This document shows positions 2,809-2,961 of a stretch of DNA of 45,153 nucleotides, one piece after another. The notes under the pieces are model-generated. The model saw only the letters and a program-made list of their open reading frames with translations, did not search any database and had not been told where the DNA came from. The DNA lies in assembly GCA_030055575.1 (NCBI GenBank), contig JASFYL010000005.1:1-45153 (forward strand), in the 5' to 3' direction. Both the position numbers and the translations under genes were made by a program. How positions within the stretch are numbered: position 1 is the stretch's first letter; each line of letters starts with the position of its first letter. The stretch comes from Thermoproteota archaeon. GTDB lineage: Archaea; Thermoproteota; Methanomethylicia; Methanomethylicales; Methanomethylicaceae.

Positions 2809-2961
2809 ATGATGAAAATGGCAAAATGTTCCAAGTGTGGGACTGATGTCGCTAAACCAGAGAAGACATGGACTCTTGCTCCAAAGGGTAAGAAGGCAGT
2901 AACAGTGGGCCTCTACAAGTGCCCGAGTTGTGGTGCCTACTTCAGAGCGTCCTCAAAGTAA
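2809..2961 (+). CDS. Small zinc-ribbon protein resembling chromatin protein Cren7
   Basis: 50-aa ORF below the track cutoff: [50 protein letters not shown]. Two CxxC knuckles; PEKxWxLAPKGxKxVxxGLxKxPxxGxYFR matches the Cren7 core recalled from memory. TATA-like ccttttaa lies about 35-40 nt upstream. Confidence 0.8.

Follow-up and report, generated by a model that had tools for sequence, protein, structure and literature searches.

Does an open reading frame (ORF) of 50 codons at positions 2809–2961 on the forward strand of a 45,153-nucleotide stretch of DNA (the window) from a methane-producing archaeon of the Methanomethylicia encode a chromatin protein in which a zinc ribbon is combined with the DNA-binding core of Cren7? 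This reading came from a first-pass annotation, whose ORF and peptide were both recovered exactly as it gave them. The region 2818–2961 is a real gene, correctly read in that annotation, and its product is a protein of known kind; the absence of the ORF from the ORF track reflects a length threshold and nothing more. Comparison with orthologues revealed changes at 55–85% of synonymous sites (pS 0.55–0.85) and 1–14% of nonsynonymous sites (pN 0.01–0.14), and the gene is under purifying selection, with dN/dS far below 1 and synonymous changes near saturation. The proposed frame and end were confirmed, but the first three residues (MMK) of the 50-aa extent probably do not belong to the product. 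In the homologue alignment, M4 was invariant across 15 homologues and residues 1–3 were variable or missing, and comparison with relatives revealed a Shine–Dalgarno-like GAGATGAT (2806–2813, +) that lies 4 nt 5′ of the ATG at 2818 and overlaps the first codons of the longer ORF. Because of this invariance and overlap, the ATG at 2818 is probably the true start, and the unconserved codons at 2809–2817 (+) are probably untranslated. Upstream comparison showed GAGATG- or AGGTG-type motifs at the equivalent position in most relatives. With the substitution pattern also taken into account, the zinc-ribbon Cren7-like protein is most likely encoded by 2818–2961 (+) and is 47 aa long, with a mass of 5.0 kDa, a computed pI of 9.7, and 10 K/R against 2 D/E (residues are numbered below as in the 50-aa ORF).

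A promoter-like element resembling an archaeal BRE/TATA box, GGTAAACCTTTTAAG (2764–2778, +), emerged from the same kind of comparison; it is located about 45 nt upstream of the start and is kept in the near relatives L003–L007, and a CTTTTAAA-type version is present in several more distant relatives. A scan for bacterial-type promoters and terminators, which is unsuited to archaea, found nothing. The gene stands alone, with a gene for an ACT-domain protein on one side and a convergent aminotransferase gene on the other, and the order AMP-binding ligase, ACT, Cren7-like gene, aminotransferase, MarC is preserved in most near relatives.

The similarity to Cren7 on which the earlier reading depended was upheld well beyond chance. 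Residues 16–47 (2854–2949, +), which form the Cren7-like DNA-binding core, matched the Pfam Cren7 profile PF11520 with 44.2 bits (E = 1.8e-11) against a gathering cut-off of 25, although the match spans only profile positions 20–51 of 58, and phmmer matched Cren7 sequences of the PDB at E = 2.6e-9. A control HMM, for which 25 full-length Cren7 sequences without zinc-ligand pairs were the sole input, gave the 50-aa peptide 47.0 bits, against 14.8 for the best of 5,000 shuffles; when all four Cys were replaced with Ser, the score was still 50.9. The Cren7 match is thus independent of the zinc knuckles, since the substituted version scores no lower, and a chance match through Lys/Cys composition was ruled out by the shuffles and the Cys-to-Ser control.

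The first-pass annotation had also aligned Sulfolobus Cren7 residues W26, L28, P30, K31, R33, V36, L40, Y49, and R51 with W21, L23, P25, K26, K28, V31, L35, Y44, and R46, and this register proved right: eight of the nine mapped DNA-contact residues are identical, the replacement of R33 by K28 being the sole difference. W26, L40, Y49, and R51 of Cren7 are likewise known or expected to lie at the DNA interface. Among the 15 homologues, K19, W21, L35, and R46 were invariant, and A24, P25, and K26 nearly so. The roles of L28, P30, K31, R33, and V36 are covered by previous studies (PMC5042384, PMC8927968): Cren7 binds the minor groove as a monomer, Leu28 intercalates, and A29, P30, K31, and R33 contact DNA (PMC5042384), and K24, K31, K42, and K48 are interface residues (PMC8927968). 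The equivalents of L28, A29, P30, K31, R33, K24, K42, and K48 are L23 (the putative intercalating residue), A24, P25, K26, K28, K19, K37, and A43, respectively, so that all published contact residues are retained or conservatively replaced, K48 excepted.

At the two turns, the knuckles that had been proposed to replace the N-terminal region and the DPET turn of Cren7 are intact: KCSKCG (2824–2841, +; C7 and C10) and KCPSCG (2917–2934, +; C38 and C41) contain four Cys that are invariant in 15 homologues, as is G11. The protein thus carries Cys pairs at both turns, as do the zinc-ligand Cren7 homologues of Kaur et al. (2018). No zinc-ribbon Pfam family scored above its curated cut-off (the best were zf-tcix, 25.8 versus 31.2, and Zn_ribbon_3, 23.8 versus 27), so a zinc-ribbon family was rejected as a better home, and none of the NCBIfam models passed its cut-off for the 2818–2961 protein. 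A zinc-free AlphaFold2 model, computed on a 15-sequence alignment, had a pLDDT of 87.4, with strands at 19–23, 31–37, and 44–49, and adopted the SH3-like small barrel of Cren7. In a Foldseek search against the PDB, ranks 1–12 were all Cren7 (probability 0.94–1.0; TMq 0.72–0.78 and rmsd 1.4–1.8 Å for most), with E-values of 0.004–0.4 that are weak, as expected at 50 residues; zinc ribbons, such as those of RNA polymerase I subunit I, NrdR, ZPR1, and archaeal RNase P Rpp21, came after them. Such a ranking is what a protein joining both folds should resemble, judging from the model. The second place of the zinc ribbons, together with the weak matches to many zinc-ribbon families, could also be read as the mark of a small zinc-ribbon protein that serves RNA, the ribosome, or RNA polymerase and resembles Cren7 only through a shared zinc-ribbon sheet. 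We consider this very unlikely, since Cren7 passes its curated cut-off and the zinc-ribbon families do not, the likeness to classical Cren7 survives removal of the Cys, and the top 12 folds are exclusively Cren7. The evidence therefore supports homology to Cren7, zinc knuckles that are intact, and a fold like that of Cren7.

The first-pass annotation suggested a connection between zinc ribbons and the Cren7 fold, with the reservation that such homologues could be known already; the connection is correct, and the reservation was borne out. A zinc-ribbon ancestry of Cren7/Sul7 had been argued from sequence and structure comparison by Kaur, Iyer, Subramanian and Aravind (Sci Rep 2018, PMC5906684). 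In their account, orthologues from Crenarchaeota and Bathyarchaeota carry between two and four Cys, placed at the two turns, ligands were lost more than once, and zinc binding was predicted, not measured; Methanomethylicota/Verstraetearchaeota are unnamed in the main text of that paper. Our search of the open-access literature found no experimental study of a zinc-form Cren7. What is new here is the revised start, the finding that the protein occurs beside histone and Alba across the class, and a graded series of ligand states.

Conservation in related archaeal genomes, proposed earlier as a check, was surveyed, and the zinc-form family was present in 34 of the 40 genomes of the class Methanomethylicia (20 of the 21 good ones). 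Histone was found in 37/40 (21/21 good) and Alba in 38/40 (21/21 good) of the same genomes. A 2018 review described Verstraetearchaeota as having neither histone nor any protein clearly resembling known chromatin proteins (PMC6136690); the survey revises this picture, since almost all good Methanomethylicia genomes contain histone and Alba as well as a zinc-type Cren7. The nearest named records, with 90–96% protein identity, belong to Candidatus Methanosuratincola and other Methanomethylicota (formerly Verstraetearchaeota). The group has a cultured member, the isolated Methanosuratincola petrocarbonis (PMC12244365), and one metagenome-derived orthologue (L007) is filed under this species name. 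No viral relatives of the Cren7-like protein were found in viral_contigs.

No histone match was found in the window's own genome (G000), which is 88% complete. As 37/40 class genomes (21/21 good) contain histone, we rejected the idea that this genome is histone-less, and the missing gene is probably an assembly gap. Co-occurrence of histone and Cren7, read by hand from the two lists of genome matches, showed histone in 26 of the 27 Methanomethylicia genomes with the zinc form, this genome being the exception, and in 0/78 genomes of the families with classical metal-free Cren7 (f11, f19, f23, f26, f30, f41, f51, f63, and f64). Zinc-form families without a histone match were also seen (f36, f43, f47, f61, and f62), and the other metal-poor group was mixed (f29, 16/16; f17, 2/16); because of these cases, and because the lineages are non-independent, the association between zinc form and histone is not a rule.

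The same genome encodes a second zinc-ribbon Cren7 paralogue, 68% identical (L002, at positions 1471–1614 of that locus, on contig C13). This copy is also 47 aa long, has a TTG start after a GGAGG site, and keeps all four Cys. Many genomes of the window's family have two or three copies, which are placed in separate regions of the tree, so the paralogues might divide the labour, with the 2818–2961 copy specialised and the L002 type as the main nucleoid protein, or with these roles exchanged. This division, although compatible with a general nucleoid role for the family, is unlikely, given that the tree branches concerned are weak and that all ligands and most of the contact residues are present in each copy. 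One extra copy in another genome (L057, G030:C20) looks decayed, with a ligand Cys of the first knuckle lost (KCPKYR) and no clear start, and is a possible pseudogene.

Across the phylum, a Cren7 match was obtained in 157 of 397 genomes. Automatic pattern classification of the 123 distinct sequences, in which a few labels are rough, revealed 58 CCCC and 10 CCCH forms, the latter with CPNGH or a similar second knuckle, and 3 with a single Cys at each turn; the classical sequences lack ligand pairs. The CCCH variant (L034, L035, L037, L038, L042, L045, and L102–L105) occurs in several families and separate parts of the tree. The single-Cys forms (L110, L121, and L155; family f29) read VECDG ... 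FKCPGG and could represent a disulphide or a metal-loss intermediate; in the same family, genomes of genus g66 contain up to five Cren7 copies. In family f41, a divergent paralogue (L115, L126, L140, and L141) has its tryptophan replaced (KVYVIRNH...), stands beside normal copies in most such genomes, and may contact DNA differently. In two further proteins, L136 (G300) and L137 (G180), a coiled coil of about 100 residues follows a zinc-form Cren7 domain that is weak and divergent; Kaur et al. reported a CdvA-coiled-coil/Cren7 fusion with the domains in the opposite order.

In an unrooted tree of 60 columns, whose length left most inner branches weak, sequences without ligand pairs fell into two distinct groups, and at least two changes between the states are required by the well-supported branches. 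Zinc ligands were thus probably lost at least twice, although the direction (loss rather than gain) follows the argument of Kaur et al. for a zinc-ribbon ancestry, not the tree. We tentatively propose, with slightly less than even confidence, that chromatin throughout Methanomethylicia combines a zinc-dependent Cren7 with histone and Alba, and that this arrangement preserves the ancestral form that gave rise to metal-free Cren7 at least two times, in the classical histone-less lineages and, separately, in another lineage in which one Cys per turn persists in some copies. If this is true, zinc-form Cren7 and histones coexisted before any histone replacement.

What, then, would the protein do in the cell? 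We consider this small, basic member of the Cren7 family likely to serve as a nucleoid protein that is stabilised by zinc and presumably abundant, with a general role in bending DNA and constraining supercoils beside the cell's own histone and Alba. One Zn(II) would be held by the CxxC knuckles, one at each hairpin turn, taking the role of the hydrophobic core and longer N-terminal strands of metal-free Cren7. The three-stranded sheet (19–23, 31–37, and 44–49) would sit in the minor groove, where L23, equivalent to Cren7 Leu28, would wedge between base pairs and kink the DNA, and K19, K26, K28, K37, and R46 would bind the backbone or groove. Kaur et al. predicted instead that zinc-ligand relatives have specialised roles in segregating chromosomes or dividing the cell, not in bulk packaging, having found Cren7 domains fused to a CdvA-like coiled coil and to FtsZ (PMC5906684), and the combination of a divergent zinc form with a coiled coil in L136 and L137 points the same way. 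For the product of 2818–2961, such a role is rather improbable: it is a single 47-aa domain with neither fusion nor C-terminal motif, and its neighbours encode an AMP-binding ligase, an ACT protein, an aminotransferase, and MarC, with no cell-division genes among them. As compact, single-domain candidates found throughout the class, proteins of this kind make the 2018 prediction of a zinc-ribbon origin for Cren7 directly testable by metal removal.

Comparison with known systems places the protein closest to the zinc-ligand homologues of Kaur et al., with which it shares the Cren7 core, a pair of Cys at each of the beta1/beta2 and beta4/beta5 turns, and the proposed retention of the ancestral zinc-ribbon state; it differs as a free 47-aa domain that occurs class-wide beside histone and Alba. 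With Sulfolobus Cren7 (PDB 3KXT, 2JTM, and 3LWH), it shares the W/L/P/K/V/L/Y/R contact pattern in register and the predicted fold, whereas the Sulfolobus protein is without metal ligands, has K48 in place of A43, and has longer N-terminal strands, the DPET turn, and a C-terminal PDDYP tail. In the 2818–2961 protein, the N-terminal part of crystallised Cren7 is represented by a CxxC knuckle and the tail is absent; the Pfam definition needs neither. The Cren7Znr family (e.g., APE_2454.1) likewise has a Cren7-like domain with zinc ligands, but that family has a longer C-terminal region, including a conserved acidic residue, with no counterpart here, since the protein, like its orthologues, ends (...YFRASSK) about four residues past the core. 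Small archaeal zinc-ribbon proteins (HVO_2753 type, RNA polymerase subunit P, and LysW) resemble it in size and in their two CxxC knuckles, whereas it falls far below their cut-offs, and its WxLAPKGxK core is that of Cren7.
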